From: Chryseobacterium binzhouense
GTDB lineage: Bacteria > Bacteroidota > Bacteroidia > Flavobacteriales > Weeksellaceae
Direction: 5' to 3'
Assembly (NCBI RefSeq): GCF_007474545.1
Contig: NZ_VKOG01000002.1
Coordinates: 434,001 to 498,000, forward strand
Length of the DNA: 64,000 bases
The translations under genes were made by a program, and so were the position numbers. This document shows positions 40,260 through 59,935 of the stretch, piece after piece. Every line of letters starts with the position of its first letter. The stretch's first letter is position 1. The notes under the pieces were generated by a model. That model saw only the letters and a program-made list of their open reading frames with translations, did no database searches and had not been told where the DNA came from.

Positions 40260-40303
40260 TTTCTTTTGTTTAGGATTTTGAAATTGATCAATATCCTTAC
40301 AAA

Positions 40304-40339
40304 AATAAATACGCAGTCCTTTTGGGCTGCGTATTTATT
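40304..40339. terminator. bidirectional terminator between convergent operons
   Basis: Thirteen-base perfect arms AATAAATACGCAG and CTGCGTATTTATT (40304-40316, 40327-40339) around a 10-base loop. T-runs lie on both sides when read on each strand, and the element sits between the plus operon ending 40229 and the minus S9 peptidase ending 40359. Confidence 0.65.
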
Positions 40340-40358
40340 AAGAACATTATAGTAATAT

Positions 40359-42857: not shown

Positions 42858-44259
42858 TTTGCGGATTTAGTTTTGGGTTGGCAAATAGTTCTCTTTCCGG
42901 TAAAGGCAGCAGTTTTCGGAAGTTTTGCCAAGCCGGCTTTAATGGAGATAGGGTATTATCTAACAAGCCTTTTCTTTTCAGGTCAAAAAAGCGGTGTCCG
43001 TACTCTGTAAACAGTTCGTGACGTCTCTCATCCAAGATCGCCGTTCTGAGCTGTTGTTGAGAAAGTCCACTCAGTGCAGTTAGTCCGGCACGGGTTCGCA
43101 ATTTGTTGACTGCAATAAGTGCTGACCCTGTGTTCCCCAGTTCATTTTCTGATTCCGCAAGAATAAGATATGCTTCTTCAATTCGTAGTACCACCGAATA
43201 TTCCAATGATGTGGTCGAGGTTTTATTGTACTGCTTGTACTTGTAAGCGTGGGAATAGCTCACTTGGGAATTGGACAATTTCTTTGTCCACTGTACTTTT
43301 CTCTGATCTCCGGCTTCAAAAGAATTAAGAAGGCTCTGCGACAGGACCACATTGGCTGGCGGAAGAGTCAAAAATGTATAATACTGACCTTCTAAAGTGT
43401 TGATCCCTGCATCTACTGGCATAAACTGCCAAACGGCACTTTTCGAATCTTTTAAAAATGTTTTGCTGAGGTCCTGTTCCACGGAATACGCAGGATTCTG
43501 AATGACCAGTGATGCATAATTCCTCGCTTCTGACCATTTGTTTTGATACAGGTATAGTCTTGCGAGGGAAAGCCTTAGCCCTGAACGGTTGATATGGGTG
43601 CGGTTAGCACTTGGATAGGTATCAGTTAACATGGTTTCAGCCTTTCTCAGATCCTCCTCGATTCTTAAGTACACTTCGCTAACAGACATTCTTGATACCG
43701 ATTGATTGATATTGTAATCAGTCGTTGAAACATAAGGAATATCACCATACAGTTCGACCATATAGAAATGAAGCAATCCCCTGATAAAATAGGCTTCCCC
43801 TAAGATCTGAAGCATCGTACTCTCATCAAGGTAGGCAACACTCCGCAAAACCCCTTCGATGATGCTGTTCACAGCATAGATCTGTTTGTACGAATTGACC
43901 CAAAGGGTATTGACCGTAGGGGTATTGGGCTGAACACCTAATTCGTAAAAGCTTCTGAAATCGACAGGCTGATTGCTCACAGAGGTCAGCTCATCGGTAT
44001 AGCACCCCATTAATGTTCCCACACCCGCTAGTCCTCCATTCAGCAGAGTATTACTTCGCAGGTTGGAATAAACATCGGAAAGTGCCGCATACGCCAGTTT
44101 CTTGTCTTTAAACACCATGCTTTGAGAGATCTGATTCTGAGGTTCATCCACTTCGAGGAATTTCTCACAGCCGACTGAGGAGATCAATACCGCTACTGCT
44201 CCAACTACAAACAGCTTTTTGCCGATATGTTTCTTGATATAGTTTGTTTCTGTTTTCAT
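42844..44259 (-). CDS. susD: RagB/SusD-family outer-membrane nutrient-binding lipoprotein
   Basis: 471 residues. Lipobox in VLISSVGCEKFLEV (Cys at about residue 30). SusD-type TPR helices and conserved stretches NSIIEGVLRSVAYLDES, AYLILAESENELGN and YGHRFFDLKR. It partners the TonB-linked SusC transporter encoded immediately upstream, 3 bases apart. Confidence 0.9.
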   Translation of the reverse strand: MKTETNYIKKHIGKKLFVVGAVAVLISSVGCEKFLEVDEPQNQISQSMVFKDKKLAYAALSDVYSNLRSNTLLNGGLAGVGTLMGCYTDELTSVSNQPVDFRSFYELGVQPNTPTVNTLWVNSYKQIYAVNSIIEGVLRSVAYLDESTMLQILGEAYFIRGLLHFYMVELYGDIPYVSTTDYNINQSVSRMSVSEVYLRIEEDLRKAETMLTDTYPSANRTHINRSGLRLSLARLYLYQNKWSEARNYASLVIQNPAYSVEQDLSKTFLKDSKSAVWQFMPVDAGINTLEGQYYTFLTLPPANVVLSQSLLNSFEAGDQRKVQWTKKLSNSQVSYSHAYKYKQYNKTSTTSLEYSVVLRIEEAYLILAESENELGNTGSALIAVNKLRTRAGLTALSGLSQQQLRTAILDERRHELFTEYGHRFFDLKRKGLLDNTLSPLKPAWQNFRKLLPLPERELFANPKLNPQNEGY

Positions 44260-44262
44260 AAC

Positions 44263-47247
44263 TTAAAATTTAAGGGTGGCACTTAATGAGTACGATTTAA
44301 TGGAAGGCAGGTAAAAGCCGGCAACTTCGGGATCCAAACCTTTGTATCCTGTGATCGTGAAAAGGTTCTGCGCCTGTGCCTGTAATGTAAGGTCGCGAAT
44401 GAGACCTTCTTTTAATGGAATCTTATAACTTAGCTGAACATTGTTGAGCCTGATAAATGAAGCGTCAACAATGACCGCATCACTGCTTTGGTATAGGGAA
44501 TGAGCACGGGTCACATCGGAATTGGTTCCTGTGCCGGGACGCTGATAACGTGCATCCCTGTTTTCGGGTGTCCAGTAGTCTAGCATATAAGAAGGGACGT
44601 TGGACATAATACCCAAGAGTGAAATGCTGTAATCCAGGCTGTATTGCCGTTGTTTAACTCCTTGGATCAAAAAGGCAAATGACCAGTTCTTATAGTTGAT
44701 TTGGCTGCTGAGCCCTCCGAAGAATTTCATTCCAATATCAACTACTTTGATCCTGTCATTCAGATCGATCTTCCCGTCACCGTTCAGATCACTGAACTCA
44801 TATACACCAGTATCCGGATTTACACCTTTTAACTCATACACCTTTTTAATATTCATTGAACGCCCAACCTCGTACATCGTTGCATAAGAGGTGGATTCAA
44901 TGTTTTCAAATTCGAGGAGTTTCGTTCGGGGAACCGTTAGATTGGCTGCGACTGACCATCGGAAGTCTTTCTTACGGATAAGATTGACATTCAACTCTGC
45001 TTCCGCACCTGCGTTCTGCACCTTTGCAGGAAAATTGCTCTGCACGGTTAAAAACCCTGTGGTGGCTGCCAAAGGTAGACCTACCAGCTGATTGGATGAT
45101 CGGTTTTGGTAATATGCCACGGTCAGGTTGACCTTATCTTTGAACAGGCCTAATTCCAATGCTGTTTCCATCTTTGTTGTCTTTTCCCAACTGAAATTAG
45201 GATTGAAAAGCCTCGACGGGTATATTCCCGAAACACCATCATAGATCTGGGTGGTGGTGGTATAGGTATCCATAAATTGGTAGTCCCCGATCAAATCGCT
45301 TCCGGCAGTTCCTAAGCTCATTCTCAGTTTTCCGAAGTTCAGCCACGAAGTGTTTTCCAGAAAAGACTCTTTCGAAAAGATCCACGCTGCTCCTACCGCT
45401 CCAAAGTTGGCAAATCTTTTCTGCGGACCAAATCGGCTTGAACCATCCCTTCTGGCAGTTAAGTTCACAATATATTTTCCCGAATAATCATAATTAAACC
45501 TCCCGAAAAAGGCATTGTAACGGTATTGTACTTCATTATCGTCCAGAACCTTTTGTACTTTGGCATTGGAAAGATTACCGATAAGGTCATTGGAAGAAAA
45601 ATCGTTTCCCTGAAGACGCAGGATCCGATCCTTCCTTTCCTCTACGGTCATTCCTGCCAATGCACTTAACTTATGATGAGTCCATTTTTTATTCCAGTGA
45701 AGCTGTGGTTCAATGATCCAGCTGTCTCGTACAACGACTCCATCGTATCTCATTGATGTACTGCTGTTGGCTCCGGTGGACGGATTAAACGCAGTCGACG
45801 GATTGAGACGGGATTCATTCTGCTCCGTAAGCGTGTATCCGGCATTGAGCTTTAGTGACCAATCTTCAAACACCTGATAATCAACATTCATATTAGATGT
45901 CAGGGTTTTGATCTTTGAACTGTACTTATTTTCAAGCTTTGCGAGTGGATTGGCAAATGTGTTGTTTTCCCAATTCAGCTGACCATTCGGATTGTACAAG
46001 ACTGGTGCATTCGGTGCAAGGAGAATCTGCCTTGTCAGATCGGCATCATTCAGAGTATTGTCCTGAACCGTATAATAAATGGTCGGGCTGATTTTCAGCT
46101 TTCTGTCTTCCGTAGAATAGGTATTGCTTAAATTGAACCCCGATCTTTTATAGCCCATCCCATTTCCGAAAGCTGTGCCCTGTTCCTGATGATGGATTCC
46201 TAAATGGTATTGATTCTGTGAATTTCCACCTGAATATGAAAGCTGTTGCTGTTGGCTAAGGAATGTATCTCCGATAAAAGTTTTGTACCAGTCTATTTCC
46301 CGTGACTGATTCCATTTGCCATTGAGATCATATGCCGTTACAGGATATGCAGAAATATTATCGTTTTTAAAAGCATCCTTCCTCAACTGCAGGTATTGTG
46401 AAGTATTCGCCATTTCAATAAATTGATTCACTTTGGAAATGGTCGTATTCATTGTAAATTCAAGTGAAGCCTTGCGGAAACTTCCCTTTTTTGTAGTAAT
46501 GATCACAACGCCGTTAGCACCTCTTGAACCGTATATTGCTGTCGCATCGGCATCTTTCAATACCTCCATACTCTCAATATCATTTGGATTGATGGAGTTA
46601 AGCGGGCTTGCCTCTCCTTTTGATAGAATACCAACCGAAAGTGAGGTAAGCGCATTGGATTGCGAATTCAAGGGAACGCCGTCAACAATATAAAGAGGAT
46701 AATTTCCTTCAGGACGAAGGCTGTTCTTTCCTCTGATCTGGACATCGAATCCTCCGCCTGCGGTTCCCGAGTTTTGGGTAATGCTGACACCTGCCATTCT
46801 GCCCTGTGCAGAAGCAAGAATGTTTGTTACTGGTTGATTTTCGATGTCTTTGGCTGAGATCTTGGCAATGCTTCCTGTTCTTTCTTTGTCTTTGACCTTA
46901 TAATAACCTGCATTGAGAACAACTTCCTCAATTTCTTTTTCTTTACCTAATGAGATATTGACGGTTATCCTGCTGCCTAAAGTGATTTTTCTTTCGGGAT
47001 AGTCCGGATGGCGGTAAATGATTATCGGGTTTTCTCCCGATACCTGAACACGGTAAACGCCTGATGCATTGGTCACAGCCACTTCATTACTACCCTCCTG
47101 GAATACGGAAACGCCTTTGAGTGGCTGGTTATTTTCTGTGACAGTGCCTGTAATGGTGCGCATCTGCCCTATTGCTACGCCGGAGACGAGCAAGGTGAAG
47201 CCAAAAGCCAATTGAAGATGACTTAGGCTGCAAAAGTTTTTTTTCAT
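44263..47247 (-). CDS. susC: SusC/RagA-family TonB-linked outer-membrane transporter
   Basis: 994 residues. Signal peptide, then a carboxypeptidase-D2-like domain (TITGTVTENNQPLKGVSV), TonB plug (LYIVDGVPLNSQ, MEVLKDADATAIYGSRGANG) and a C-terminal barrel ending LSATLKF. Substrate not known; the S9 peptidase partner suggests a peptide. First gene of the operon. Confidence 0.93.
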   Translation of the reverse strand: MKKNFCSLSHLQLAFGFTLLVSGVAIGQMRTITGTVTENNQPLKGVSVFQEGSNEVAVTNASGVYRVQVSGENPIIIYRHPDYPERKITLGSRITVNISLGKEKEIEEVVLNAGYYKVKDKERTGSIAKISAKDIENQPVTNILASAQGRMAGVSITQNSGTAGGGFDVQIRGKNSLRPEGNYPLYIVDGVPLNSQSNALTSLSVGILSKGEASPLNSINPNDIESMEVLKDADATAIYGSRGANGVVIITTKKGSFRKASLEFTMNTTISKVNQFIEMANTSQYLQLRKDAFKNDNISAYPVTAYDLNGKWNQSREIDWYKTFIGDTFLSQQQQLSYSGGNSQNQYHLGIHHQEQGTAFGNGMGYKRSGFNLSNTYSTEDRKLKISPTIYYTVQDNTLNDADLTRQILLAPNAPVLYNPNGQLNWENNTFANPLAKLENKYSSKIKTLTSNMNVDYQVFEDWSLKLNAGYTLTEQNESRLNPSTAFNPSTGANSSTSMRYDGVVVRDSWIIEPQLHWNKKWTHHKLSALAGMTVEERKDRILRLQGNDFSSNDLIGNLSNAKVQKVLDDNEVQYRYNAFFGRFNYDYSGKYIVNLTARRDGSSRFGPQKRFANFGAVGAAWIFSKESFLENTSWLNFGKLRMSLGTAGSDLIGDYQFMDTYTTTTQIYDGVSGIYPSRLFNPNFSWEKTTKMETALELGLFKDKVNLTVAYYQNRSSNQLVGLPLAATTGFLTVQSNFPAKVQNAGAEAELNVNLIRKKDFRWSVAANLTVPRTKLLEFENIESTSYATMYEVGRSMNIKKVYELKGVNPDTGVYEFSDLNGDGKIDLNDRIKVVDIGMKFFGGLSSQINYKNWSFAFLIQGVKQRQYSLDYSISLLGIMSNVPSYMLDYWTPENRDARYQRPGTGTNSDVTRAHSLYQSSDAVIVDASFIRLNNVQLSYKIPLKEGLIRDLTLQAQAQNLFTITGYKGLDPEVAGFYLPSIKSYSLSATLKF

Positions 47248-47887
47248 ACTTTTGAATAGGTTTAATTCGTTAGACTTTGCTCTTTCCTACGCTAGCAGTC
47301 AACTTTTGTGGAAAGGGCTTTTGTTTTTCTATGGTTACGTTACACTTTCTGTTTCTTGAATATGTTTTTAGCGTTTCTATTTGATGATGCTTGGGAGGAA
47401 GCTTCAGTAAGGACATAGCAAAACCTCCTGCCCCAGCACATCTTGAAATAATATGAATGAAATTGTGTCCCGTCAAAGCTGTAAGGCCGCAATGGATTGT
47501 ACTCCCCATTGTATCGTGCAGTCTGATACTGTATTTTGTGGAAGCGGCTTAGAATGTAGAGCGAACGAACAGCATTGGAATAAAAACAGCGTGGAACTCA
47601 CTACATCATCGCTTGTACTAGAGGTATCGCCAAACACCTTGCAACAAACTCCGTAAGTGAGCCCACGCCGAAGCGTGAGCTACTTTACTTATGGTCTCGT
47701 TGCATTGTTTTGAAAATTGGCGATTTTCTAGTACGAGGTTCTAAGCAATAGCTTCTATAATTCTTTGAAGTATCGCAAAATTACGTATTATAACGTAAAA
47801 AGCAAATATAAATATAAAATCCAATACATCCAAATATGGATGTGTGTATTTTTTAAATATTGTTGTAATTGGGGGGAAATATTAAAA
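47248..47887. other. 640-base non-coding stretch with nested inverted repeat
   Basis: Open frames at 47270-47509 and 47453-47656 lack support and are not called. The stretch 47612-47737 forms a large nested inverted repeat. It marks the left edge of an AT-rich island whose genes lie mostly on the plus strand. Confidence 0.5.
47612..47737. repeat. 126-base nested inverted repeat
   Basis: Outer arms of about 22 bases (47612-47633 with core GTACTAGA...ATCGCCAA, and 47717-47737) match at about 18 positions in inverted orientation. Inside are TGCAAC/GTTGCA (47640-47645 and 47699-47704) and a tip CACGC-cgaa-GCGTG (47664-47677). The nesting would form one long branched stem. Possible attachment, cassette or structured RNA element. 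Confidence 0.65.
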
Positions 47888-48316
47888 ATGGTGGACGGTA
47901 AAATTGTTGAAATTATTATATCTGAGCTTGATCTCTTTATGATTGATATAATTAGGGAATACAGAGGAAGAGCGGACAAATACATATCTCAGGTAGAGCT
48001 ATCACAAAGAATGGGTTTTGCAGATGGTTATGTAGGTAAAGTTGAAAATTTCGGCTCGAACGCTCGTTATAACATTAGAAAGTTGCATCTTGCTGCGAAG
48101 GCTTTGGGATTAAGTTCTTATACTAAACTCTTACCTGAAAAAATTTTAAGTAATGATCTTGTTTTATTGCGAATTCAAGTAAATAGAAGGAAAAATGACA
48201 CCGTTGATTTTGACAAGAATGGTAAGGTAATTAAAAACTATGTCATACTTGAAAAAAGGGTATTAACCGAAGACGAAGTTAAACTACATAATAACCGAAG
48301 AAGTAGAAAAAACTGA
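47888..48316 (+). CDS. XRE-like HTH protein at island edge
   Basis: 142 residues. An HTH-like helix pair appears at about residues 32-55 (SQVELSQRMGFADGYVGKVE), then a basic C-terminal domain (KLLPEKILSNDLVLLRIQVN, NRRSRKN). ATG 47888 is used rather than an upstream start at 47765 that would add an unsupported leader. Probably a regulator of the island. Confidence 0.6.
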   Translation: MVDGKIVEIIISELDLFMIDIIREYRGRADKYISQVELSQRMGFADGYVGKVENFGSNARYNIRKLHLAAKALGLSSYTKLLPEKILSNDLVLLRIQVNRRKNDTVDFDKNGKVIKNYVILEKRVLTEDEVKLHNNRRSRKN

Positions 48317-48645
48317 TAACAGCAGTTTGTTTTGAAAATTTGAAATTATCCCTTTTAGTTTCTAGCATTTATAAAGTTGCTATGATTTACTATTTATTGT
48401 CCTGATCGTCATAATCCACTTCTACATAGAAGATGTATAATCGGTACAGTGTAAATTTTATATTATTTTTTGTTGAAGATTTTATAAATTCTTCTTTAGT
48501 AAAAGCAATATTACATTGCCAATATTGAGGCAATAGTAAATTCATAGAAAGAAAACTGACTAATTAAAACTCTTATTGGTACTGAAGAATATATAAACAT
48601 TAGATTGATTGCTATTTTAAAACCATTTCTTTTAATGTAAATTTA

Positions 48646-48725
48646 TATATTTGCAATGATCCCCAGTTAATCTGAGTTTCATGGTTATTAGTTTTTAGTC
48701 CCCGATTTATTCGAGGACTTTTTTT
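48646..48725 (+). ncRNA. candidate small RNA: promoter, short body, terminator
   Basis: A -7 box TATATTTG (48646-48653) is followed about 44 bases later by a hairpin, AGTCCCCGA and TCGAGGACT (48697-48705 and 48711-48719, one mismatch), then seven T (48719-48725). The transcript would be about 60-70 nt with no usable ORF (the only short frame ends after four codons). No -33 match at standard spacing. No RNA family recognised. Confidence 0.45.
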
Positions 48726-48861
48726 GGACTCCTTTCAAAAAGAAAAGTTGCAGATAATTATAGTTTAAATAGCTAAGATTACAAATCTGTTAGCCTTAAA
48801 AACATATTTTAACTATTAATAAATATTTATATTTACTTACTAATATTTGAAAGACATAACC

Positions 48862-49569
48862 ATGAACGATTTATTACAAATAGCTCGAAATGATATTAAT
48901 ACTGCAGAGTTGCTTTTTAATAACAAAATATACAGTAATGCAATATATTTTTATCATCAAGCAGTCGAAAAAGCAGTAAAATATCTTGGCTTAAGAATAG
49001 GAGTTATTGACACTGATGATTTAAGACGAAAAATCAGCCATAATCCTATAAAAGTTTTTAAGATTTTAGATGAAAAAGAAAACATATTTGGTGGTCAGGG
49101 AATTGATAACTTTGCATCGATCATAAAGCAGCTAACAGATGAACAACTTGTGAATAATACTTTGTCCGAAATTGAAAAAAGCACAAGAAATTTGTATGAT
49201 TTAGATAGCAATATATCATCTTTTCAGAATTTTAAAAATTATATTGTTGATAAAAATTTTGAAGAAAAGGAATCATTACTTTCTATAGAGGAAAATGCGT
49301 ATTACAACAAAATGGCTTCGGATTTCTTTAATCAGTTAAATGTAGGTGCAACAATAATGAGAATGTTGTTTTTAAATTCTTGTTTATGCACAAAATATAG
49401 TCTAGATAGTTACAGATATTCAAGTACTGAAGTCGGTGATCCTATCGAATATTTTTCAATAAATAATCCTATCATATTAAAACTAGATATTTTCATCAAA
49501 TCTGTAAAGATATGCCTATCACAATTAAATGTCATTAAATGGGAAAATGAAAAATACAGTCAAACATAG
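48862..49569 (+). CDS. HEPN-domain protein
   Basis: 235 residues. The first about 70 residues resemble a HEPN domain (DINTAELLFNNKIYSNAIYF, HQAVEKAVKYLGLR). The rest is helical without a named motif. HEPN proteins are frequent RNases in toxin-antitoxin and abortive-infection systems, but the canonical RxxxxH is not evident in the remaining sequence, so activity is uncertain. No nucleotidyltransferase partner is seen. Confidence 0.6.
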   Translation: MNDLLQIARNDINTAELLFNNKIYSNAIYFYHQAVEKAVKYLGLRIGVIDTDDLRRKISHNPIKVFKILDEKENIFGGQGIDNFASIIKQLTDEQLVNNTLSEIEKSTRNLYDLDSNISSFQNFKNYIVDKNFEEKESLLSIEENAYYNKMASDFFNQLNVGATIMRMLFLNSCLCTKYSLDSYRYSSTEVGDPIEYFSINNPIILKLDIFIKSVKICLSQLNVIKWENEKYSQT

Positions 49570-49647
49570 TTAAGCATGTACTCGACTTACATCATAGATT
49601 TGGTTTTAAAAATAAAATTTTATTAAAATTTAATAATAGATTCAAAG

Positions 49648-50655
49648 ATGAATTGGCTAACACAAAAATTTGGAATCATTGATCATCACAAAAATACTGA
49701 TTTTGGTACACAACCAATTAGGGTTTTACATTATATGATTGTGTTTATGTTCAATAATACCAATAAAGATTTTTTTTTAAATTTACAAAAACTTATAAGG
49801 GAGGGAAAATTTAATTCAGAATTAAATTTTGAATTTGGGGAAGAACCAATAATGATTGAGAACGGCAGATTTAGAACTCCTTATGCAAATCTTCATACTA
49901 AACAAATAACAATTCATGAAACCTTTTTATCTTACATATGGTGTATAACTTATTCAATTTATGTAATCTACTTGGAAGAAATAGATTTCCCAAAGTACAA
50001 CAAATTACATAATCGAGAAGTATATCCAATAAAAGAAGAGAACAAACAGCTTGCATACGAAATGTTCAACTATGCTAAACATTTGATTGTTGATTATACG
50101 CCTTGGGAAAAAGATATTCTACCAAATCCTGAGAGATTTTTAGCCGAAAACAGATTATATATTGAACAGACTAATGGTTTTTACACTGAAGCTGTAAAAT
50201 TTATTTTTTGTCATGAGATCATTCATTTAGAATTGCATTTTGACAAAATAACTTCTGAGACTACTGATAGTCATTATTTAGAATATGAGATTGAGGCAGA
50301 CAGTAAAGCTATTGAGAGTATTAAGGCAGGGCTAAGTGATGTTCAAAGTCCTTTTGAAATTGCGAAAAAAACTGTTGTTAGTGTTGGAGCGGTAATCGGT
50401 GTTTTATCAATGTTTTTTTTCAAAGCCACGACAGAAGGAAAACAGCATCCAAATTCTGAAGATAGACTAACAAATATACTCGAGATGTTTAATTTTCATG
50501 ATTCTCATGAGATTTGGGGTATTGCTTGTGTTGGATTAAAATTTTGGGATAATCAGTTCGGTCATAATTTTAATTGGTTAGAAAATCCAACATCTTACAA
50601 AGAAGAATATTATAGTATTGTTGAACAAATAAAATCTAGGAATATCTTAAAGTAA
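49648..50655 (+). CDS. Lit/U49-like metalloprotease
   Basis: 335 residues. HExxH at residues 189-193 (FIFCHEIIHLEL) with a downstream EIEAD segment (about 214-218), which probably supplies the third zinc ligand. A hydrophobic helix (VSVGAVIGVLSMFFF) and the HPNSEDRL segment follow, the pattern seen in peptidase U49 (Lit-type phage-exclusion) proteins. It starts 78 bases after the HEPN gene. The target is not known. Confidence 0.6.
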   Translation: MNWLTQKFGIIDHHKNTDFGTQPIRVLHYMIVFMFNNTNKDFFLNLQKLIREGKFNSELNFEFGEEPIMIENGRFRTPYANLHTKQITIHETFLSYIWCITYSIYVIYLEEIDFPKYNKLHNREVYPIKEENKQLAYEMFNYAKHLIVDYTPWEKDILPNPERFLAENRLYIEQTNGFYTEAVKFIFCHEIIHLELHFDKITSETTDSHYLEYEIEADSKAIESIKAGLSDVQSPFEIAKKTVVSVGAVIGVLSMFFFKATTEGKQHPNSEDRLTNILEMFNFHDSHEIWGIACVGLKFWDNQFGHNFNWLENPTSYKEEYYSIVEQIKSRNILK

Positions 50656-50951
50656 AAGAACTTTCTGCTTGTAACGAAGTCCATTTTAGGTATTAAACTT
50701 TGATTATTTTTAAATCTGGACTACTTGTTTGTAACAAAAGACGTTCAAATAGTAAGCATAATCTAATGTTATAAGATATTTTAAAACGTAAAATTCATAA
50801 AGGATTTCAATTACATAAAAGAGTAATATTTTTAAAATTTCATATAAGCATTATAAGAATCTATAACTTTTTTGTATAAAGTTTTTAGTATACATTTTAA
50901 ATCACAAAATCACAAATTATAACTAATAAACGAAAACTTCTTAAATTAAAT

Positions 50952-51917
50952 ATGCAAAAAGGGATTTTATATAACGATATCGAATTGGGTTATTCTGCTA
51001 TTAGTGCTTACCATCTAAGTCTATTAACTCGTGACAAAAACTTCTATAAAAATGTTATTGACAGTCACTTATATATTATTGTACAAAGAAAGGAGATCAC
51101 ATTTCATAAATTCTCTTTCTCGAACAAGCGTATACTAAAATTTGAAATTCATCAGGAAGGTATTAGCAAGATTATTGCCTGTGAACTACCTTTAAATCAA
51201 GAAAGTTTTAAACTAGATTTTAAAAAAGAAATACAGCTTCGAACACATGACAGGAGAAATACTTTAGAAAAACAAATTCAATACCCTTTTGATGGAATCC
51301 AAGCATTTTCCATTTTGGAGAGGGATGTATTAACGCAAAAGAGCGAATTGGCAGTTTGGTTTTCTCCTGATAAACTTTTTTATCATCATTGGAAAGGAAA
51401 TCTTTATGCTCAATTTTCAGATGATTATCAAGATATGCTCAATTATAAAATACACTACGTCGGCAAATCAACAGAGCAGAATATTTGCAAAAGATTATCA
51501 AATCATTCAACTTTTCAGGAAATATTAATCAATGAAACTCCTTTTAGTTTTGGTAACATTCCGTCCAATGAGATTATGGTGTTGCTTATGAGAATATGCG
51601 ATAATAATAGTATTGTTAGCTGGGGTAAAGAGGCTACACCGGAAGAAATGGCTGACTTTATCCTAAATTATAAACTTCCTAGTGACAAGACGGTTTCACT
51701 AGATGCAGAGAAAGCATTAATCAAACATCTGCAGCCCCACTACAATAAAATTCTTTACCACTCTTTTCCTCAAAATAATGATCTTGTTAATACTGATTAT
51801 CATTCTGTAATTTTATACGCTTTTTGTGATCCGATTTCTTTAATCTACAATCAAGGAATCATAAAAGGGGGGAAACTTGGAGAAGAAAGAGATTTTATTG
51901 CAGTAGAAAGAATTTGA
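50952..51917 (+). CDS. protein with GIY-YIG-like domain
   Basis: 321 residues. The C-terminal half carries a GIY-YIG-like core (HYVGKSTEQNICKRLSNHST) at about residues 167-187, with a conserved-looking LIKHLQPHYNK near residue 255. The N-terminal half has no recognised fold. A 296-base AT-rich gap precedes it. It may act as a nuclease together with the adjacent protease. Confidence 0.5.
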   Translation: MQKGILYNDIELGYSAISAYHLSLLTRDKNFYKNVIDSHLYIIVQRKEITFHKFSFSNKRILKFEIHQEGISKIIACELPLNQESFKLDFKKEIQLRTHDRRNTLEKQIQYPFDGIQAFSILERDVLTQKSELAVWFSPDKLFYHHWKGNLYAQFSDDYQDMLNYKIHYVGKSTEQNICKRLSNHSTFQEILINETPFSFGNIPSNEIMVLLMRICDNNSIVSWGKEATPEEMADFILNYKLPSDKTVSLDAEKALIKHLQPHYNKILYHSFPQNNDLVNTDYHSVILYAFCDPISLIYNQGIIKGGKLGEERDFIAVERI

Positions 51918-51980
51918 TTAAAATAACTTTTACTCACAAATTTTAAGTTAAATAATGCGAATGTTATTATTATAATTGAT

Positions 51981-52832
51981 ATGAATAAAGACCTTATTAA
52001 ACTATTCCCGAGCATAAATAATGCAATTCTTAACCATACCCCAGTAATCCTGACACCTGCACCCCCCTCGGCTAAACCCGTTGGTTGTGGAATTTATTTA
52101 AAAACACAAAAATCCAGATATTTAATTAGCGCTGGGCATCTTTTAAATATACAAGACTGGAAAGGTTTGATAGTTCCGTCAGGGGGAACTAAGGTTTTGA
52201 ATTTAAATGGAGTACTAGCTACAACTTTTCAAGATGGTAATCAATCTGATGATATAGACTTTTCTCTTTTTAAGTTTTCCCCACGTATGAACAAACACTT
52301 TGATGATCAACAATGGAAATTTATTACTCCAGAACAGATCAGTACAAATCATATATTAGATGATGAAGGATATTATTTCATTTCTGGATATCCTGTAAGC
52401 GGCGTTAAGAAAGTTGCTGGTAAAGCTGAATTTAAACCAATTCCTGTTAAATTTATTACTGAAACAGTTGATCAAAAAACGTATGAAAAATTTGGTTTCA
52501 ATAGAGATAATTTTATTTTGGTCAAGTATAAAAGAAAAGTAATACCTCTAAATTCTAATTTACCACAGATAACAAAAGAATTGAAAGGGATTAGTGGTAG
52601 TGGCCTCTGGCATGTTCCTGATTTTAACGATAAAGATGAAAACGGAATTTCTAAATATTATCTTGTTGGAATTATGACCGAGAATCATAAAGATAAAGGC
52701 TTTCTAGTTGCAGTAAAAATTGATTTTGTAACTGAATTAATAATACAACTTTTTCAAGACCTTTCATTTGAACATACGAAATTCAATATAACTGATAAAC
52801 TAAGGGAGATTATTATTGATCATGATTTATAA
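51981..52832 (+). CDS. trypsin-like serine protease
   Basis: 283 residues, no signal peptide, so cytosolic. Catalytic triad candidates: His53 in LISAGHLL, Asp93 in DDIDFSLFKF, Ser205 in LKGISGSGLWH. Fold recognised from these three motifs. A cytosolic trypsin-like protease next to a GIY-YIG-like gene (63 bases) and downstream of HEPN and metalloprotease genes suggests a defence effector. Confidence 0.62.
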   Translation: MNKDLIKLFPSINNAILNHTPVILTPAPPSAKPVGCGIYLKTQKSRYLISAGHLLNIQDWKGLIVPSGGTKVLNLNGVLATTFQDGNQSDDIDFSLFKFSPRMNKHFDDQQWKFITPEQISTNHILDDEGYYFISGYPVSGVKKVAGKAEFKPIPVKFITETVDQKTYEKFGFNRDNFILVKYKRKVIPLNSNLPQITKELKGISGSGLWHVPDFNDKDENGISKYYLVGIMTENHKDKGFLVAVKIDFVTELIIQLFQDLSFEHTKFNITDKLREIIIDHDL

Positions 52833-52905
52833 AATTTAAGCCTAATACTTTCCTTACAACCAGAAAAATAATCTTACAACAATTTATATTGAAATAGTAA
52901 TTATT

Positions 52906-53181
52906 TCAAAATGGCAAATTAGTATTAGCGGAGACTTCACCAATTAAAGTTGTAATTATTTTTTTCACAAACAAATTTAATTTTTCAACAATGAGTTGAC
53001 TGAAAACTTTGAGTTCAAGATGAGGCGAATTATTTGTTAAAGGAGGTTTAAATAAGGTAATTAAGTAGTTACCTGGTGCACTGAAAGGTATAAACTTATT
53101 TCCAAATTCAAAAGATAGTAACGCATTACAAAAATGCGTAAAAATATCAGAATTGAAACGTGACCAATCAATTGTTTTCAT
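52906..53181 (-). pseudogene. truncated restriction-endonuclease-like N-terminus
   Basis: 91 codons starting MKTIDWSRFNSDIFTHFCNA. This resembles the N-terminus of REase-like (Mrr/NACHT-associated) proteins, where a PDGGID-type motif should follow FSAPG; here the sequence diverges after SAPGNYLITL. The remaining half is a likely unrelated fusion or out-of-frame stretch. A decayed remnant of a defence gene is most probable. Confidence 0.4.
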
Positions 53182-53319
53182 TCACATCTAATGATTAATA
53201 TATGAAACTAAAGATAGAAATATAAAGCGAAATATTGCATAAGATGTAATTTTTAATATTGCTACAAATTATTTATTAAATCCAATCCTATTTTGACAAG
53301 GCCAGTAATTATATATATA

Positions 53320-53934
53320 TTAACTTTCACGAATCATTCGAAATGTCAGATTAATTCGTTCTTTCATTGGTATAGTAGATTTGGCAATCCGATGTTCCCA
53401 GTTTTCCTGTAAATCCCCTTTCATAATCAGTAATGAACCGTTTGGAAGTGGCAGACTGTATTTGCTCTGATGATGGTCTTTTTTTCTGAAATCAAAGTTT
53501 CTGGTCTGTCCAAGGCTGATAGATGCAATAACAGGTCTTTTTCCATATCTGCTTTCCTTATCTCTGTGCCAAGCTACTGAATCATTTTGGTCACGATAAA
53601 GGTTTAATAGAACCCCATTGAACCTACAACCAAATTCTTGTTCAATTCTTTCTTTTAATGCCAGCAACTCCGGAGTCCAGGGATTGGTACTTGAAGTATT
53701 ATTATCAGCCGATTCGTAAGATTTTTTGTCATTACCATACCAGGCGGTTAGTCGTGGGGTTATGACTGTCTTATCATACATTTTCTGGGTACGTTGTTCC
53801 CATGGAGCCGTTTTAAACAGATGGTCTTTCAATCGATCCGCCTCTTCCCTGCTCAAGAAATTTTCTTTATATTCCAAAAGGTCTTTTGGAAATTCGTAAA
53901 ATTCTTCAGTATCAAATAAAGTCAGCTGGCCCAT
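53320..53934 (-). CDS. alkB: AlkB-like Fe(II)/2-oxoglutarate DNA dealkylase
   Basis: 204 residues. Iron ligands are visible: HxD in VAWHRDKES (His123, Asp125) and a distal His181 in WEHRIAKS, with 2-oxoglutarate-binding Arg in LTFRMIRES. It begins MGQLTLFDTE; QLTLF resembles a sliding-clamp-binding motif. Repairs N-alkyl lesions on DNA. Confidence 0.9.
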   Translation of the reverse strand: MGQLTLFDTEEFYEFPKDLLEYKENFLSREEADRLKDHLFKTAPWEQRTQKMYDKTVITPRLTAWYGNDKKSYESADNNTSSTNPWTPELLALKERIEQEFGCRFNGVLLNLYRDQNDSVAWHRDKESRYGKRPVIASISLGQTRNFDFRKKDHHQSKYSLPLPNGSLLIMKGDLQENWEHRIAKSTIPMKERINLTFRMIRES

Positions 53935-54049
53935 TGCAATTTTCTTTTAAAATATTTTTCTTTATGCTATCCCATTTCTATGGGATATTTTTTTATCATT
54001 TGTGTTTTTAATTTTCTTTTTGGGAAGGTCTTTAATTAACAGACTATGT

Positions 54050-54826
54050 TTAAAAACTAGAAACCTTATTTTCCAGGTTAAGAATCGTGGTCTTCAAATC
54101 CCCAATCATCATTTTTAAATTGGCATAATCCGGCATTAAAGGTTTATAGTCTTTAGGTAAAATTCCCATTACATAACTCCATATTTCAACTATATCCCCT
54201 AATGCAATGTCATAAGGTTCATAAAATAAATTATCAGCTGCTACCATAATTGATTTTTTATTTCTCTTTAAAAATGTCTTATAAGTGATACCTTCCTTAG
54301 TCACAAAAACATAATCCTTATCAGGTTTAAGGTCATCCAGTTTTTCAACATATTCTCCGATAATTATAGATTGATCGGCAAAAGGTGGCATTGAATCGCC
54401 GTCTGCCAGAAAGCCTCTGTATTTTCCATTTTTTAAAAATGGCAGAAGAATCCTCATAAGTTTTTCAATATAGCCAGGATCATTGAAGCCTTTCAAATAA
54501 CCCATTGAAACTTTTTGTGGAACGATCTCAATGTAATTATTACCATCCTTATCCACAACAATAGGTAAGACTACCCGATTATTGGGCAGATTCAAAATAT
54601 CATCAATTGGATATTTTCGAATGTCAACAGTAACTAAAAGATCAATGCTGATATTGTAATATTTGGAGATCCTTATCAACACATCAATTGGCGGTTCTGC
54701 CTTTTCATACTCATAAGAAACATATCTCGATCTGGTAAGAATGAGTTCATCCGCCAGCTTCTGCTGCGTTAGATTTTTCTTACCTCTTAAAAACACGATG
54801 TTATCTGCAAAAATTGACATTGTCAT
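54050..54826 (-). CDS. XRE-S24 repressor (LexA/CI-like)
   Basis: 258 residues. N-terminal XRE helix-turn-helix (LTQQKLADELILTRSRYVSY). C-terminal S24 peptidase-like domain: Ser in DGDSMPPF and the likely Lys in GITYKTFLKR, so it could self-cleave in response to DNA damage. Two ATGs, 54826 and 54820, both fall within or at the edge of the 19-bp palindrome. It is divergent from dinB. Confidence 0.85.
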   Translation of the reverse strand: MTMSIFADNIVFLRGKKNLTQQKLADELILTRSRYVSYEYEKAEPPIDVLIRISKYYNISIDLLVTVDIRKYPIDDILNLPNNRVVLPIVVDKDGNNYIEIVPQKVSMGYLKGFNDPGYIEKLMRILLPFLKNGKYRGFLADGDSMPPFADQSIIIGEYVEKLDDLKPDKDYVFVTKEGITYKTFLKRNKKSIMVAADNLFYEPYDIALGDIVEIWSYVMGILPKDYKPLMPDYANLKMMIGDLKTTILNLENKVSSF

Positions 54827-54857
54827 AATTTATGACAACAAATATACATAATTTGTT
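54820..54857. promoter_or_regulatory. repressor operator and promoter between S24 gene and dinB
   Basis: Perfect 19-base palindrome TTGTCATAATTTATGACAA at 54820-54838 overlaps the repressor start codons. Beside it, AACAAAT/ATTTGTT (54837-54843 and 54851-54857) forms a second dyad. The minus-strand -7 box TATATTTG lies at 54839-54846. This fits tight autoregulation and control of dinB from the same sites. Confidence 0.6.
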
Positions 54858-54869
54858 TAAAAACGTGAC

Positions 54870-54877
54870 TAAGTTTG
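54870..54877 (+). promoter_or_regulatory. dinB -7 box, short or absent leader
   Basis: TAAGTTTG matches TAnnTTTG and ends 5 bases before the dinB ATG at 54882, so the transcript would start at or next to the start codon. A proper -33 TTG is not clear at 19 bases. Confidence 0.45.
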
Positions 54878-54881
54878 CAGT

Positions 54882-56024
54882 ATGGAAAGAGCAATTGCAC
54901 ATATGGACCTGGACACATTTTTCGTATCCTGTGAGCGGCTGAAAAACTCTGTGTTGGAGAAACAGCCCGTGATCATTGGAGGCGGTGACCGTGGTGTGGT
55001 GGCATCCTGCTCGTATGAGGCGAGGGAATTCGGTGTCCGCTCGGCAATGCCCATTAGGATGGCTTTGAGGTTATGTCCTGAAGCCAGAGTGATCAAAGGT
55101 GATATGGAATATTATTCCAATATGTCACATGTGGTGACCGAGGTCATTCAGGAAAAAGTACCGGTATTGGAAAAAGCAAGCATTGATGAATTTTATCTGG
55201 ATCTTTCAGGAATGGATAAATTCTTTGGCTGTTACCAATGGACGAATGAAGTTGCCGATGCCGTGATGAAAAATACAGGCTTGCCGATCAGCTTTGCCCT
55301 TTCTACCAATAAGACGGTCTCCAAGATCGGGACGGGTGAATCCAAGCCTATTGGGAAATTGGAGGTAAAAGCATTGGATGTCCAGCCTTTCTTAAATCCG
55401 TTATCGATAAAAAAGATCCCGATGGTGGGGCCTGAGACCTTCCAGTTGTTTTCCAGATTAGGTGTCAAGACCATAAAGACCCTTTCTGAGATGCCGGTCG
55501 ATGTATTACAGGAACTGGTCGGAAAGAATGGAACGGTACTTTGGAAGAAAGCACACGGTATCGATGAAACGCCGGTCATACCCTATTGTGAAAGAAAATC
55601 GATCTCGACGGAGAATACATTTTCTCAGGACACTATCGATATTCAGAATATCAGAAGTGTATTGTCAGGAATGGTTGAAAAGCTCTGTTATCAGCTGAGG
55701 CACGAAAAATGGCTGACCTCAACGGTTTCCATTAAGATCAGGTATGCCAATTTTGATACGGAGACCAAACAATGCAGGATCCCCTATACTTCGGCTGACC
55801 ATACCTTATTGCGGTATGTTTTGGAACTGTTCAATAAGGTCTACACAAGAAGAATGAGGATCCGATTGATCGGTGTCAGGTTTACCGGTCTGGTTCATGG
55901 CCTTCATCAGATGGATCTTTTTGAAGATACGGAAGAACTGATCTCTTTGTATCAGACAATGGATCATCTGAAGGACAGGTTCGGTCCATCCAGTGTCGGG
56001 AGAGCATCAGGTCTATTACTTTAA
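54882..56024 (+). CDS. dinB: Y-family DNA polymerase (DinB)
   Basis: 380 residues. Catalytic residues are present: HMDLDTFF (Asp9, Asp11) and ASIDEFYLDLSG (Asp102, Glu103). KTVSKIGTGESKPIG is the little finger-proximal loop. A clamp-binding motif QMDLF occupies residues 343-347. It overlaps no gene and is 9 bases upstream of dnaE2. Translesion synthesis. Confidence 0.92.
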   Translation: MERAIAHMDLDTFFVSCERLKNSVLEKQPVIIGGGDRGVVASCSYEAREFGVRSAMPIRMALRLCPEARVIKGDMEYYSNMSHVVTEVIQEKVPVLEKASIDEFYLDLSGMDKFFGCYQWTNEVADAVMKNTGLPISFALSTNKTVSKIGTGESKPIGKLEVKALDVQPFLNPLSIKKIPMVGPETFQLFSRLGVKTIKTLSEMPVDVLQELVGKNGTVLWKKAHGIDETPVIPYCERKSISTENTFSQDTIDIQNIRSVLSGMVEKLCYQLRHEKWLTSTVSIKIRYANFDTETKQCRIPYTSADHTLLRYVLELFNKVYTRRMRIRLIGVRFTGLVHGLHQMDLFEDTEELISLYQTMDHLKDRFGPSSVGRASGLLL

Positions 56025-56033
56025 TATTTTATT

Positions 56034-59000
56034 ATGTTTCTGAATTGCCATTCATATCACAGTTTACGTTACGGAACCATCTCTATTGAAGATCTGGTCC
56101 AGCTGGCTGTTGACCATCGATTAAAGGTTTTGGCACTGAGTGATATCAATACGGTTACCGGTATCTACCAGTTTTACAGGCTTTGTCAGGATAATGGAAT
56201 CAAACCGATCGTCGGTGTTGATGTACGGATTGAGAATGAACAGTATTATATATGTCTTGCAAAAAACCCAAAAGGTATCGCAGAGATCAACAGGCTTTTG
56301 ACCAATTATAATTGTGAAGGAATTGAGATTCCTAAAGCTAATCCTGAACTGGAAAATACTTTTGTGATCTATCCTTTAAAAAATATTCCTGAACAACTGC
56401 TGGACCATGAATTTATAGGAATAAGACAGGATGAGATAAACCTGCTGTTCAATCCTGAACTAAAAGCTCTGATCCATAAAATGGTCATCCTGCAACCGGT
56501 CACTTTTAAGACAGATGAGGAATATGAACTGCATAAAGTTTTACGGGCAATAGCAGGAAATACTTTATTCAGCAAACTTACAGAAGATGACTACTGTAAA
56601 AGCAATGAGACCTTTATTGGTAAAAGAGGACTGTTAGACAAGTATTCCCAATATCCGGAGATCGTTGAAAACACCAAATATATTGTCAATGCTTGCAGTT
56701 TCGATTTTGACTTCAAGACACCAAAAAATAAAAAATATTATACCAATAGCAAAGAAAATGATTTCAAACTGCTGAATCAGTTGGCTTTTGAAGGCTTATG
56801 TGATCGCTATTCTCTTGATAATGGGCAAGCCAGGGAAAGAATGGAAAAAGAATTGGCAGTTATTGACCAGTTGAATTTTTGCGGTTACTTTTTAATTACC
56901 TGGGATATTGTACAATACAGCAAAAGTGTAGGATTTATGCATGTCGGAAGAGGAAGCGGTGCCAACTCCATTGTCAGCTACTGCATCGGGATCACTGACA
57001 TATGTCCTTTGGAACTGGATCTTTATTTTGAGAGGTTTCTGAATCTTAACCGGAAGACACCTCCTGACTTCGATATCGACTGGAGCTGGAAGAACAGAGA
57101 TGCCATATTGGAATATATCTTTAAAAAATATGGAAAAGACCATGTGGCATTCTGTGGGACCAATGTAGAATTTAAAAGCAGATCTAGATTCAGGGAACTG
57201 GGCAAAGTATTCGGATTGCCAAAAGATGAACTCGATCAGCTCTCCAAAAGACCGAAAGATCAGCATGATCAGAATTCCATCGTTCAGGAGATCTACAAAT
57301 ATGAGAAATTACTGATAGGTTTTCCTAACCAAAGAAGTATGCATTCCTGTGGGATCCTGATCTCAGAGGAACCGATCACGAACTATTCTGCCTTGGAATT
57401 TCCCCCAAAGGAATTCCCGATCGTACAATTTGATATGCATACCGCAGAGGAGATCGGTCTCGAAAAATTTGATATTCTATCACAAAGAGGATTGGGAACC
57501 ATAAAAGATACGGTCAGACTGATCGAAGAAAAAAGAGGGATCACTGTCGACATTGAGGATACAAGGATCTCAAAAAATGAGGCCAAGTGCAACGAATATC
57601 TGAGTATCGGAAAGACGATTGGCTGTTTCTATATTGAATCGCCTGCTATGCGGGGCTTGTTGAGAAGATTGAAGTGTGAGAATTACAAGGTTTTGGTGGC
57701 TGCCTCATCCATTATCCGTCCCGGTGTGGCACAGAGCGGGATGATGCGGGAGTATATCTTTCGGCATAACCATCCTGATCAGTTTGAATATTTTCACGAG
57801 GTTTTTGAAAAGGAATTGGGAGAAACCTATGGAATCATGGTCTATCAGGAGGATGTCATCAAAATTGCCCTTCATTTCGGTGGTGTTTCTGCAGAAAACG
57901 GTGATGTCTTGCGCAGAGCCATGAGTGGCAAAGGCCGTTCTTTATCTGCATTGCAGAAACTAAAAGATGAATTCTTTGAGTCTTGCAGGAAAAAAGGACA
58001 TCCTGAACAATTGTCCCAGGAAGTATATCGCCAGATCGAATCTTTTGCTGGGTATTCATTCTGCAAGGCACATTCCGCTTCCTATGCCGTAGAAAGCTAT
58101 CAGAGTCTCTATCTAAAGGTTTACTACCCTATTGAATTTATGGTCTCAGCCATCAACAACGGTGGTGGATTTTACCGGACGGAAGTATATGTTCACGAGG
58201 CAAAAATGGCAGGAGCGACCATTCATAATCCCTGTGTTAACCTCAGCGAATTTCAGACGACAGTGTATGGAACAGACGTATACCTGGGTTTTATGCACAT
58301 TGAAAAACTGGAAGCCTCGCTCAAGCAGCTCATTACTGACGAACGAAGAAACAATGGAGATTATACATCACTTGAGGATTTTATTAAAAGAGTGCCCATC
58401 GGTATAGAGTCACTGCAGATACTCATTTTTATTGGCGCCTTCAGATCTACAGGGAAACAAAAACATGAATTGCTGATCGAAGCCAGATTTCTATTGTCTA
58501 AAGGGCAATATAGAATAAAAGTCATTTCTTTATTTGATGAGCCGCAGAAGGATTATCAACTGCCGGTTATTGAACGGAATCAATTTGAAGATGCTTTTGA
58601 TGAAATTGAGATATTGGGCTTTCCTGTCTCCTTTTCTATGTTTGACCTGCTGAAAACTAAGTACAGAGGCCATGTGCTGGTGAGGGATCTGCTGAAATAT
58701 CATAAAAAACAGGTCAAGATGCTGGCCTATTTGATCTCCAGAAAGCATGTGCCCATTAAAAAGAAAGATCATCCCGGAAAGAAAGATGATATGTATTTCG
58801 GAACCTGGATCGATGCTGAAGGGGAATATTTTGATACCGCCCATTTTCCGGACAGCCTGAGAAGGTTTCCTTTTAAAGAAGGTGGGATCTACCTATTACT
58901 GGGAACGGTTGAGGTCGATTATCATTTTCCTACAGTAACCATTACCAAGATGGCAAAGATGCCGCTGATCGCAGATCCACGTTATTCAATGGACAAGTAT

Positions 59001-59111
59001 AAAGCCCACGAAATAGAAAGGAGCCTTCGTGAAGATGTGAGCTTAACTTTTAGGGAACCTTATCCGCATGAAAAAGAGATCGGATTGCCCCGACATAAAA
59101 TGTTACGATAA
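56034..59111 (+). CDS. dnaE2: error-prone DNA polymerase III alpha (DnaE2-type)
   Basis: 1025 residues, shorter than replicative DnaE. N-terminal PHP domain (CHSYHSLRYGTISIEDLV), then the palm: HVGRGSGANSIVSYC near residue 303 and the catalytic aspartates in PPDFDIDW near residues 343-350. GxSG-rich fingers and an OB/tau-like C-terminus follow. Paired with dinB, this is the Bacteroidetes form of a mutagenic SOS cassette; no imuA or imuB is present. Confidence 0.9.
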   Translation: MFLNCHSYHSLRYGTISIEDLVQLAVDHRLKVLALSDINTVTGIYQFYRLCQDNGIKPIVGVDVRIENEQYYICLAKNPKGIAEINRLLTNYNCEGIEIPKANPELENTFVIYPLKNIPEQLLDHEFIGIRQDEINLLFNPELKALIHKMVILQPVTFKTDEEYELHKVLRAIAGNTLFSKLTEDDYCKSNETFIGKRGLLDKYSQYPEIVENTKYIVNACSFDFDFKTPKNKKYYTNSKENDFKLLNQLAFEGLCDRYSLDNGQARERMEKELAVIDQLNFCGYFLITWDIVQYSKSVGFMHVGRGSGANSIVSYCIGITDICPLELDLYFERFLNLNRKTPPDFDIDWSWKNRDAILEYIFKKYGKDHVAFCGTNVEFKSRSRFRELGKVFGLPKDELDQLSKRPKDQHDQNSIVQEIYKYEKLLIGFPNQRSMHSCGILISEEPITNYSALEFPPKEFPIVQFDMHTAEEIGLEKFDILSQRGLGTIKDTVRLIEEKRGITVDIEDTRISKNEAKCNEYLSIGKTIGCFYIESPAMRGLLRRLKCENYKVLVAASSIIRPGVAQSGMMREYIFRHNHPDQFEYFHEVFEKELGETYGIMVYQEDVIKIALHFGGVSAENGDVLRRAMSGKGRSLSALQKLKDEFFESCRKKGHPEQLSQEVYRQIESFAGYSFCKAHSASYAVESYQSLYLKVYYPIEFMVSAINNGGGFYRTEVYVHEAKMAGATIHNPCVNLSEFQTTVYGTDVYLGFMHIEKLEASLKQLITDERRNNGDYTSLEDFIKRVPIGIESLQILIFIGAFRSTGKQKHELLIEARFLLSKGQYRIKVISLFDEPQKDYQLPVIERNQFEDAFDEIEILGFPVSFSMFDLLKTKYRGHVLVRDLLKYHKKQVKMLAYLISRKHVPIKKKDHPGKKDDMYFGTWIDAEGEYFDTAHFPDSLRRFPFKEGGIYLLLGTVEVDYHFPTVTITKMAKMPLIADPRYSMDKYKAHEIERSLREDVSLTFREPYPHEKEIGLPRHKMLR

Positions 59112-59229
59112 CGCACGAGCCTATTTGGAGCAATATTATAAAAATTTAATCAGAATAAAATTCGTGATAAAAGACTGACCTTCAATAATAATGATCTGAT
59201 CTACAAAATATATTACTAATTTTATAATT

Positions 59230-59883: not shown

Positions 59884-59935
59884 AATAGTTTCTAAATAAA
59901 CTTTGATTATATCATGTTTATTAGGTTAGTTTCTA

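Follow-up and report, generated by a model that had tools for sequence, protein, structure and literature searches.

What kind of locus is formed by five consecutive plus-strand open reading frames (ORFs) beside a SusC/SusD operon of Chryseobacterium binzhouense, and do its genes belong together? The window analyzed here is a stretch of 64,000 nucleotides (nt) from contig NZ_VKOG01000002.1 (assembly GCF_007474545.1, positions 434,001 to 498,000), in which these ORFs encode a small XRE-type helix-turn-helix (HTH) protein, a HEPN protein, a Lit-like protease, a GIY-YIG-like protein, and a trypsin-like protease (Table 1; compared genomes and loci carry G and L numbers). A sequence-only reading had proposed that the five genes are a phage defense island and that the last two may form a two-gene system. 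We consider it fairly probable that the segment from 47785 to about 53308 is a strain-variable, defense-type island of separately acquired units, lying beside an arrangement of a structured RNA and an HTH gene that heads the SusC/SusD operon.

A Strain-Variable Island beside a SusC/SusD Operon

Is the segment set apart from its surroundings? The five ORFs follow one another on the plus strand as first described (the first being taken from an internal ATG of the listed ORF), with gaps of 530, 78, 296, and 63 bp in order, the last of these separating the GIY-YIG-like and trypsin-like genes. The higher AT content that had been claimed is also there. In 500-base windows, GC content is 24 to 34% across 47,750–53,250, compared with 40 to 45% in the left-hand neighbor (42,750–47,500); on the right it is 31 to 37% over 53,250–55,000 and 42 to 45% over 55,000–56,250, beyond which it varies between 34 and 44%.

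The clearest sign of variability comes from genome G124, whose left flank matches window positions 37572–47784 at 91% and which resumes from 59930 at 85 to 86%. The intervening 12.1 kb (47785–59930), comprising the five genes and a cassette of alkB, regulator, dinB, and polymerase genes, is absent there, and in its place stand 1.6 kb with a small HTH gene of another kind. On the left, the break falls at 47784, where a dispersed element ends; we describe this element below. The cassette, whose 1,025-amino-acid (aa) gene is presumably dnaE2-like, is a second unit in the variable region; it lies at other places in G249, G683, and G687 (loci including L070, L073, and L074), and the match ends between 53308 and 53339. 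In two further Chryseobacterium genomes, G281 and G250, the 20 kb around the island are 99.99% and 99.97% identical to the window (blastn pieces of 100 nt or less were left out of this comparison; ORF listings throughout start at 55–80 aa), and the three strains are therefore treated as one evolutionary instance rather than as independent cases.

An insertion driven by a tRNA or an integrase was considered and rejected: no tRNA lies within the window, the nine scanned proteins of 47888–56021 include no integrase match, and no repeat joining both edges was seen among the 20 repeat families listed of 38. The short minus-strand ORF at the end of the island, which had been described as a truncated restriction-endonuclease-like remnant, lost that label, as it had no match in Pfam, in PADLOC, or among plasmids and only an irrelevant one in NCBIfam (E 0.014).

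The HEPN and Lit-Like Genes

Which of the genes point to defense? Together with the AT-richness and the absence of the 12.1 kb from G124, it is a Lit/U49 homolog, a HEPN gene, and a nuclease-like gene that support the island as proposed. The HEPN protein matches PF05168 at 40.4 bits against a cutoff of 22 (E 3.8e-10) and carries the R-x4-H motif RRKISH, so that the earlier assignment stands; profile and motif are what it shares with HEPN proteins, from which it differs in having no nucleotidyltransferase partner among the scanned neighbor proteins.

The claim of a HExxH protein related to Peptidase_U49 was likewise borne out. The third protein reaches 35.2 bits against PF10463 (gathering cutoff 23.9), matches the PADLOC Lit model at E 7.5e-24, and has the sequence HEIIH at residues 189–193, of which H189, E190, and H193 are invariant in five aligned sequences. 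With Lit, the phage-exclusion peptidase of the U49 family, it has in common the profile, the HEIIH, downstream E/D residues, and a similar length. It differs in scoring 114.3 bits against the NCBIfam Lit equivalog model, below the cutoff of 274, and it is 24% identical to a Spirosoma Lit-family protein; judged by these scores, it is a relative of Lit and not a Lit equivalog. Escherichia coli Lit cleaves EF-Tu and is triggered by a phage capsid peptide.

A conserved HEPN–Lit unit was rejected, with relatives of HEPN in 2 of 198 family genomes and of Lit in 5 of 247 (own genome included in each) and no further search for co-occurrence. Elsewhere, Lit relatives adjoin a weak DUF4145 match below the gathering score (L083:7031–7783) or an RNxxxH-type protein with the motif RNEIAH and no Pfam match (L084:10074–11180). 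Neither locus was counted as a HEPN–Lit case; a recurring neighborhood of Lit and HEPN-like genes is possible.

A Divergent GIY-YIG-Like Gene

Is the fourth gene a GIY-YIG nuclease? Here the sequence-only reading stands in part. What holds is the core: Y169, G171, R181, H185, E253, and N265 are invariant throughout an alignment of eight proteins of Bacteroidota and Proteobacteria, the window protein among them, and in a second alignment R181, H185, E253, and N265 are violated solely by the truncated protein of L053. We take these Y-x-G, R, H, E, and N residues to be those of a GIY-YIG active site, and the pattern Y-V-G-K ... R-L-x-x-H ... E-K-A-L-I-K ... P-x-Y-N to resemble a UvrC-type core. 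Two of the eight aligned members match GIY_YIG_2 (best E 7.8e-4). The part that did not hold is a match of the window protein itself, for which Pfam returned no GIY model and only a weak RE_Eco29kI (E 0.065). No canonical first GIY motif was seen in it by eye, and a PDB search with the family profile gave nothing meaningful. An AlphaFold2 model has an order of strands and helices that fits the fold and, at a mean predicted local distance difference test (pLDDT) of 61.8, is too uncertain to use.

The 297 family genomes yielded relatives in 6, the window strain cluster accounting for three, and a profile search of 395 phylum genomes yielded them in 3, with the own genome counted; none was found in viral contigs. 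A scan of genome contigs gave 12 loci, one of them from C. limigenitum. In nine of the other 11, the proteins are 71 to 95% identical to one another across genera (best matches), with 41 to 44% in L051 and L052, and the window protein is only 31 to 38% identical to the relatives in these 11 loci in one comparison and 32 to 39% in another. No neighbor gene recurs among them, save for a 37% AAA match (L043–plasmid locus) and weaker ones. Ten neighbors from seven loci were scanned and gave GH97, alcohol dehydrogenase, macroglobulin, CorA, dimethylarginine hydrolase, HATPase, and cytochrome-c/HEAT matches, with three unmatched. Because closely similar proteins stand among unrelated neighbors in different genera, the gene appears to be a lone, horizontally moving one, and the pattern suggests as much for the relatives in L043–L050, L053, and L026. 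Directly upstream of the relative in L026 lies a gene that we name, presumptively, tyrosine-recombinase-like.

Might such a gene work alone? The GIY-YIG protein could be a self-sufficient, single-gene restriction system whose N-terminal region senses DNA or its modification, by the logic of CMoRE (PD-T4-3), a single-gene GIY-YIG defense system (PMC12923530). The two share a single-gene GIY-YIG protein with an additional domain, and the published precedent joins the high identity among nine loci with unrelated neighbors and the active-site residues kept in both alignments in speaking for the idea. The nuclease core of the window protein, however, is C-terminal (residues 169–265 of 321) and not N-terminal, no GIYxY motif was seen by eye, PADLOC gave no CMoRE-like match and only PDC-M02A at E 0.005, and the scanned neighborhoods hold mostly nondefense genes. 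We regard a lone-gene restriction system as a tentative possibility, short of an even chance.

A Trypsin-Like Protease with Changing Neighbors

Does the fifth gene belong with the fourth? The catalytic triad that had been proposed for it was borne out, as H53, D93, and S205, set in GH and GxSGxG contexts, do not vary among 11 aligned sequences (window included). Trypsin_2 is matched by 5 of the 11 (best E 5.3e-7), the window protein not being among them, and a PDB search with the trypsin profile gave nothing meaningful. No signal peptide is evident by eye. The family alignment covers the 283-aa protease nearly end to end, so that no sensing enzyme is fused to it.

Of 297 family genomes, 11 hold a relative, as do 6 of 296 phylum genomes, the own genome being counted both times. 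The closest two, at about 62%, come from G231 and G159 and lie in a 2.27-kb block (L029:9483–11752 and L030:8022–10290) that is 99.1% identical in two species, where the flanks differ save for short repeats; it contains the trypsin-like protease and a 414-aa protein with a sub-threshold MauJ match only in Pfam and the motif RNKVVH, which we take to be an RNxxxH (HEPN-like) signature. In G159 (L030), an Mrr-M78 gene precedes the block, and most of the alkB/regulator/dinB/polymerase cassette, namely the regulator, dinB, and the large gene, adjoins the trypsin and 414-aa genes. A PIN_12 gene stands before the protease in L033. Other relatives adjoin ppk/ppx, dehydrogenase, esterase, or metal-resistance genes. 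Among viral contigs there was one trypsin relative, in one contig found twice. This relative (L037:4947–5738) lies between two genes that we would call integrase-like, which suggests that the protease family can travel on mobile elements.

The GIY-YIG/trypsin two-gene system did not survive comparison beyond near-identical strains: none of the 18 other fetched GIY loci holds a trypsin-family match, and none of the 15 other fetched trypsin loci holds a GIY match. Flanks were mostly 4 to 10 kb per side, and shorter in L051, L053 (contig end), and L063; the counts exclude L042, a copy of the window locus that has both genes, and three near-identical Chryseobacterium genomes, and the relatives H3, H8, G570, and G369 also stand outside them. 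A conserved two-gene unit was rejected on these counts; as far as the loci compared reach, the pair does not recur beyond this strain cluster, the outcome that the sequence-only reading had named as refuting it. The pairing looks like a recent, chance neighborhood, perhaps accidental.

Could the two genes nevertheless act as a defense unit, with the protease activating the nuclease? Pairs of a metallo-β-lactamase (MBL) nuclease and a trypsin-like protease have been validated in Hachiman, AVAST, Lamassu, and DRT systems (Tuck et al. 2025, PMC12799240), and the window resembles them in that a nuclease-like gene lies immediately upstream of the protease gene, on the same strand and 63 bp away. 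Relatives of the protease also adjoin other nuclease-like genes, namely those for RNxxxH (L029, L030), PIN_12 (L033), and Mrr-M78 (L030) proteins. In contrast to those pairs, the window nuclease is GIY-YIG-like rather than of the MBL fold, the protease lacks a fused sensor, and the pair is not conserved; the absence of co-occurrence in other fetched loci and the lack of any shared neighbor among GIY relatives make this unit, in our judgment, very unlikely. Among the open-licence PubMed Central results ranked highest, we found no description of a GIY-YIG/trypsin pair. Given the RNxxxH, Mrr-M78, and PIN_12 neighbors, it is possible that the protease family partners varied nucleases, by analogy with the pairs of Tuck et al.

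Might the region be no more than a plastic site next to a SusC operon, with island genes that are neutral or in decay? The genes are indeed rare in the family, at the GIY, trypsin, Lit, and HEPN counts given above (own and, where drawn, near-identical genomes included). All four ORFs are nevertheless open and keep their alignment-invariant residues (HEPN by motif only), and we consider neutral cargo unlikely.

A Structured RNA at the Left Edge

What is the dispersed element at which the variable region begins? Of 60 genus genomes, 49 (among them the own genome and a near-identical one) have DNA matching window positions 47250–47880, at up to six places each; with nine candidates scored per genome, these counts are lower bounds, and some of the matches are to the SusC leader only. 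A transposon or a gene was considered and rejected, as no inverted termini were seen by eye and a small peptide like that of the window is listed in 2 of 20 copies. We read the element as an RNA because covariation explains it better.

The RNA points at the SusC operon, and an alignment of 21 copies gives a consensus fold of 69 pairs, one hairpin being added by hand, in which 96.8% of cells are standard pairs. Double-sided changes occur in 11 pairs, against a shuffled mean of 5.1 and a value reached by none of 500 shuffles; the covariation score is 0.111, compared with 0.081 for shuffled alignments and 0.025 to 0.039 with slid partners. The number of further pair types is not exceptional (52 of 500 shuffles). 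Because the fold was taken from this very alignment, and because its sequences are related, the test is biased in favor of the fold. An additional helix, NNNNAC/GTNNNN, was missed by the program and is present in all 21 copies; with G-U allowed, it has at least 5 contiguous pairs in each, and its 5′ hexamer takes 14 different forms. Partners were chosen as the best-pairing ones no more than 75 nt away, and they fall at agreeing positions among copies. Read on the minus strand, every one of the 21 copies starts with TAnnTTTG and has a TTG 16 to 22 bases upstream of such a box, a combination (TTG-N-TAnnTTTG) that we take to be the Bacteroidota promoter motif. For a slightly stricter pattern, 6 kb of shuffled sequence would give 0.375 occurrences per strand; the minus strand has three, one of them at the RNA start. 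The RNA is probably a long leader of the SusC operon or an independent RNA.

How widespread is it? With a search model of 100 positions and strict filters, 28 of 128 sampled genomes of the order, from 8 of 56 genera, give a match at E 0.001 or better; in 21 of the 28, from four genera, the match reaches E 1e-9 or better. In the 35 loci searched, the model is strong at L027, L033, L071, and L072 and without a match in 29. Weak matches also fall at L085:2559–2662 (E 6.4e-6) and L030:1338–1447 (E 2.2e-5). Rfam, searched up to E 1, gave a single match in window positions 46500–55000, which is unrelated, sub-threshold (E 0.33), and lies outside the RNA, and none in five other RNA loci. Structured noncoding RNAs have been described in the order, some of them conserved in Flavobacterium (the Rfp RNAs of F. 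psychrophilum, PMC9723704). These could include the window RNA; the text consulted describes no divergent HTH partner for them.

An HTH Gene Divergent from the RNA

Is the first gene of the five a defense gene at all? As an XRE protein it is only partly supported: relatives at the same position mostly match HTH models, and its own best Pfam HTH match is weak (E 0.068). We see in it the divergent partner of the SusC-side RNA rather than a defense gene, although it sits on the variable side of the G124 breakpoint. All 20 of the other Chryseobacterium copies fetched (L098–L117) are followed, at a distance of 12 to 109 bp, by a small ORF of 73 to 135 aa on the same strand; these copies are better-scoring matches rather than a random draw; seven further regions were also fetched. 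Beyond these, 14 of the 72 RNA-model matches listed were fetched, favoring other genera, and a divergent small gene is found in 12 (L138–L147, L150, and L151), the other two being weak matches that may be false (L148, E 6.5e-8; L149, E 2.3e-6). Pfam at E 0.01 finds HTH_3 in 23 and HTH_26 in 23 of the 33 regulator proteins from both sets, window included; of the ten that were hardest to call, eight have an HTH match at E 0.01 or better, and that of L141 reaches only E 0.051. In 9 of the 20 other copies, no more than 5% of shuffles reach the length of the longest palindrome.

To the left of the element, 19 of the 20 copies have as their first gene of any size one that lies on the opposite strand and is directed away from the element; none was found for L104. 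By eye, eight of these genes are SusC-type receptors, three are TlpA-like, and eight belong to a family of 173 to 203 aa. This last family (L108:5450–5977, L115:5595–6116, and six other loci) is the first gene on the 3′ side of the RNA, and the two members scanned have no Pfam match. In the 12 further loci, the left operon is SusC-like in ten (by eye) and sigma-factor-like in two (L146 by Pfam, L150 by eye). Loci were also compared in pairs: four of seven pairs (L103/L108, L104/L116, L107/L117, and L111/L115) share only a block of about 700 to 780 bp holding element and regulator, short pieces aside, and the remaining three, L114/L147 among them, share more.

What lies beyond the regulator? 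At the strong RNA-model matches that were inspected, the RNA is followed by a divergent small regulator gene and then by variable cargo. We sampled 53 of the 64 next-downstream ORFs (two after each regulator), dropping four from L148/L149 and seven under 120 aa. Among the first 25 of 56 Pfam families and of 347 PADLOC families, matches include PtuA (Septu), KwaB (Kiwa), an AbiEii-type AAA protein, ResIII, M.Eco57I, a D12 methyltransferase, a reverse transcriptase, and HNH, alongside matches to a lantibiotic dehydratase, an efflux protein, and a transposase; AAA matches in PADLOC can be generic. That the cargo is defense-rich is an impression.

It is possible, if rather doubtful, that the XRE gene is half of an undescribed Flavobacteriales RNA–HTH arrangement, a unit of about 700 bp that could couple the expression of the receptor to that of adjacent defense genes. 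Several observations weigh against this. The ORF beside the RNA in L112 has no HTH match, and L075 and L076 are SusC sites with an HTH-like gene and no RNA-model match. In L114 and L147, from two genera, a 3.7-kb match (70% of the DNA) comprises regulator, RNA, and receptor operon and ends at the cargo, with regulators that agree in 89 of 93 residues; there the HTH gene stays with the SusC operon and not with the cargo, which speaks against receptor–cargo coupling. In the highest-ranked open-licence PubMed Central results, no description of the RNA–HTH arrangement was found, and it is apparently undescribed.

Table 1. Features of the variable region and its left flank, in window coordinates
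Feature	Position	Strand	Remarks
S9 peptidase	40359–42857		After SusD; Pfam Peptidase_S9
SusD	42844–44259		After SusC; Pfam SusD_RagB
SusC/RagA-type TonB-dependent receptor	44263–47247	−	Pfam Plug, TonB barrel; 95.9% identical in G124
Structured RNA, about 340 nt	47450–47812	−	TAnnTTTG box at 5′ end; 21-copy alignment with covariation
Predicted Bacteroidota promoter of the RNA	47803–47833	−	TTG-N-TAnnTTTG; laxer pattern in 21/21 copies
Palindrome ACATCCA-AATA-TGGATGT	47826–47843		Possible operator of the adjacent HTH protein; found by inspection
Small XRE/HTH-like protein, 142 aa	47888–48316	+	Divergent partner of the RNA; different HTH gene at the G124 site
HEPN protein, 240 aa	48847–49569	+	PF05168; R-x4-H motif at residues 60–65
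Lit-like Peptidase_U49, 335 aa	49648–50655	+	Pfam, PADLOC, NCBIfam
Divergent GIY-YIG nuclease-like protein, 321 aa	50952–51917	+	N-terminal beta-rich region; C-terminal YVG...R...H...E...N core
Stand-alone trypsin-like serine protease, 283 aa	51981–52832	+	Triad H53/D93/S205
Short ORF	52906–53181	−	The earlier restriction-endonuclease-like remnant; no relevant match
AlkB-like, HTH regulator, dinB-type polymerase, 1,025-aa gene	53320–59111		Pfam for the first three; second unit in the variable region

Discussion

How would such a locus work? In the defense-type island that we favor, each gene would act on its own, as an effector of abortive infection or of restriction. Upon sensing a phage protein, the Lit-like protease would cleave a target in the host, the HEPN protein would act as an RNase, and the GIY-YIG protein would be a solo DNA nuclease. 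The trypsin-like protease would activate or destroy a neighboring protein, and its older partner would more likely be an RNxxxH (HEPN-like) protein than the GIY nuclease. At the edge, the XRE/HTH protein would most likely bind the palindrome between the divergent promoters and repress one or both, which would bring both its own gene and the RNA/SusC leader under its control. The RNA would serve the SusC operon as a long leader, or it would be a small RNA released from that leader by processing. At other sites, a small HTH regulator, differing by site and having its own palindromes, would read away from the RNA toward variable, often defense-type cargo.

The island reading has its own counterweights. 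PADLOC gives a strong named-defense match for the Lit-like protein only, and the missing integrase and edge-joining repeat, like the mixed cargo of other loci, count here as well. Several trypsin relatives lie among metabolic or metal-resistance genes and the scanned neighbors of GIY relatives are mostly nondefense genes, so that these two genes may have roles other than defense.

What does the locus add? Taken alone, the five genes extend a known kind of locus by a Lit relative, a HEPN protein, a GIY-YIG-like nuclease, and a protease, and the cassette of trypsin-like protease and 414-aa RNxxxH protein is a candidate protease–RNase system. The arrangement at the edge matters more than the island genes. 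If it is general, the RNA–HTH arrangement would help to locate variable islands in Bacteroidota and would offer a directly testable example of a surface receptor whose control is linked to that of its neighbors; if the proposed coupling is true, a SusC receptor, a possible entry point for phage, would be tied to the expression of the defense genes next to it.

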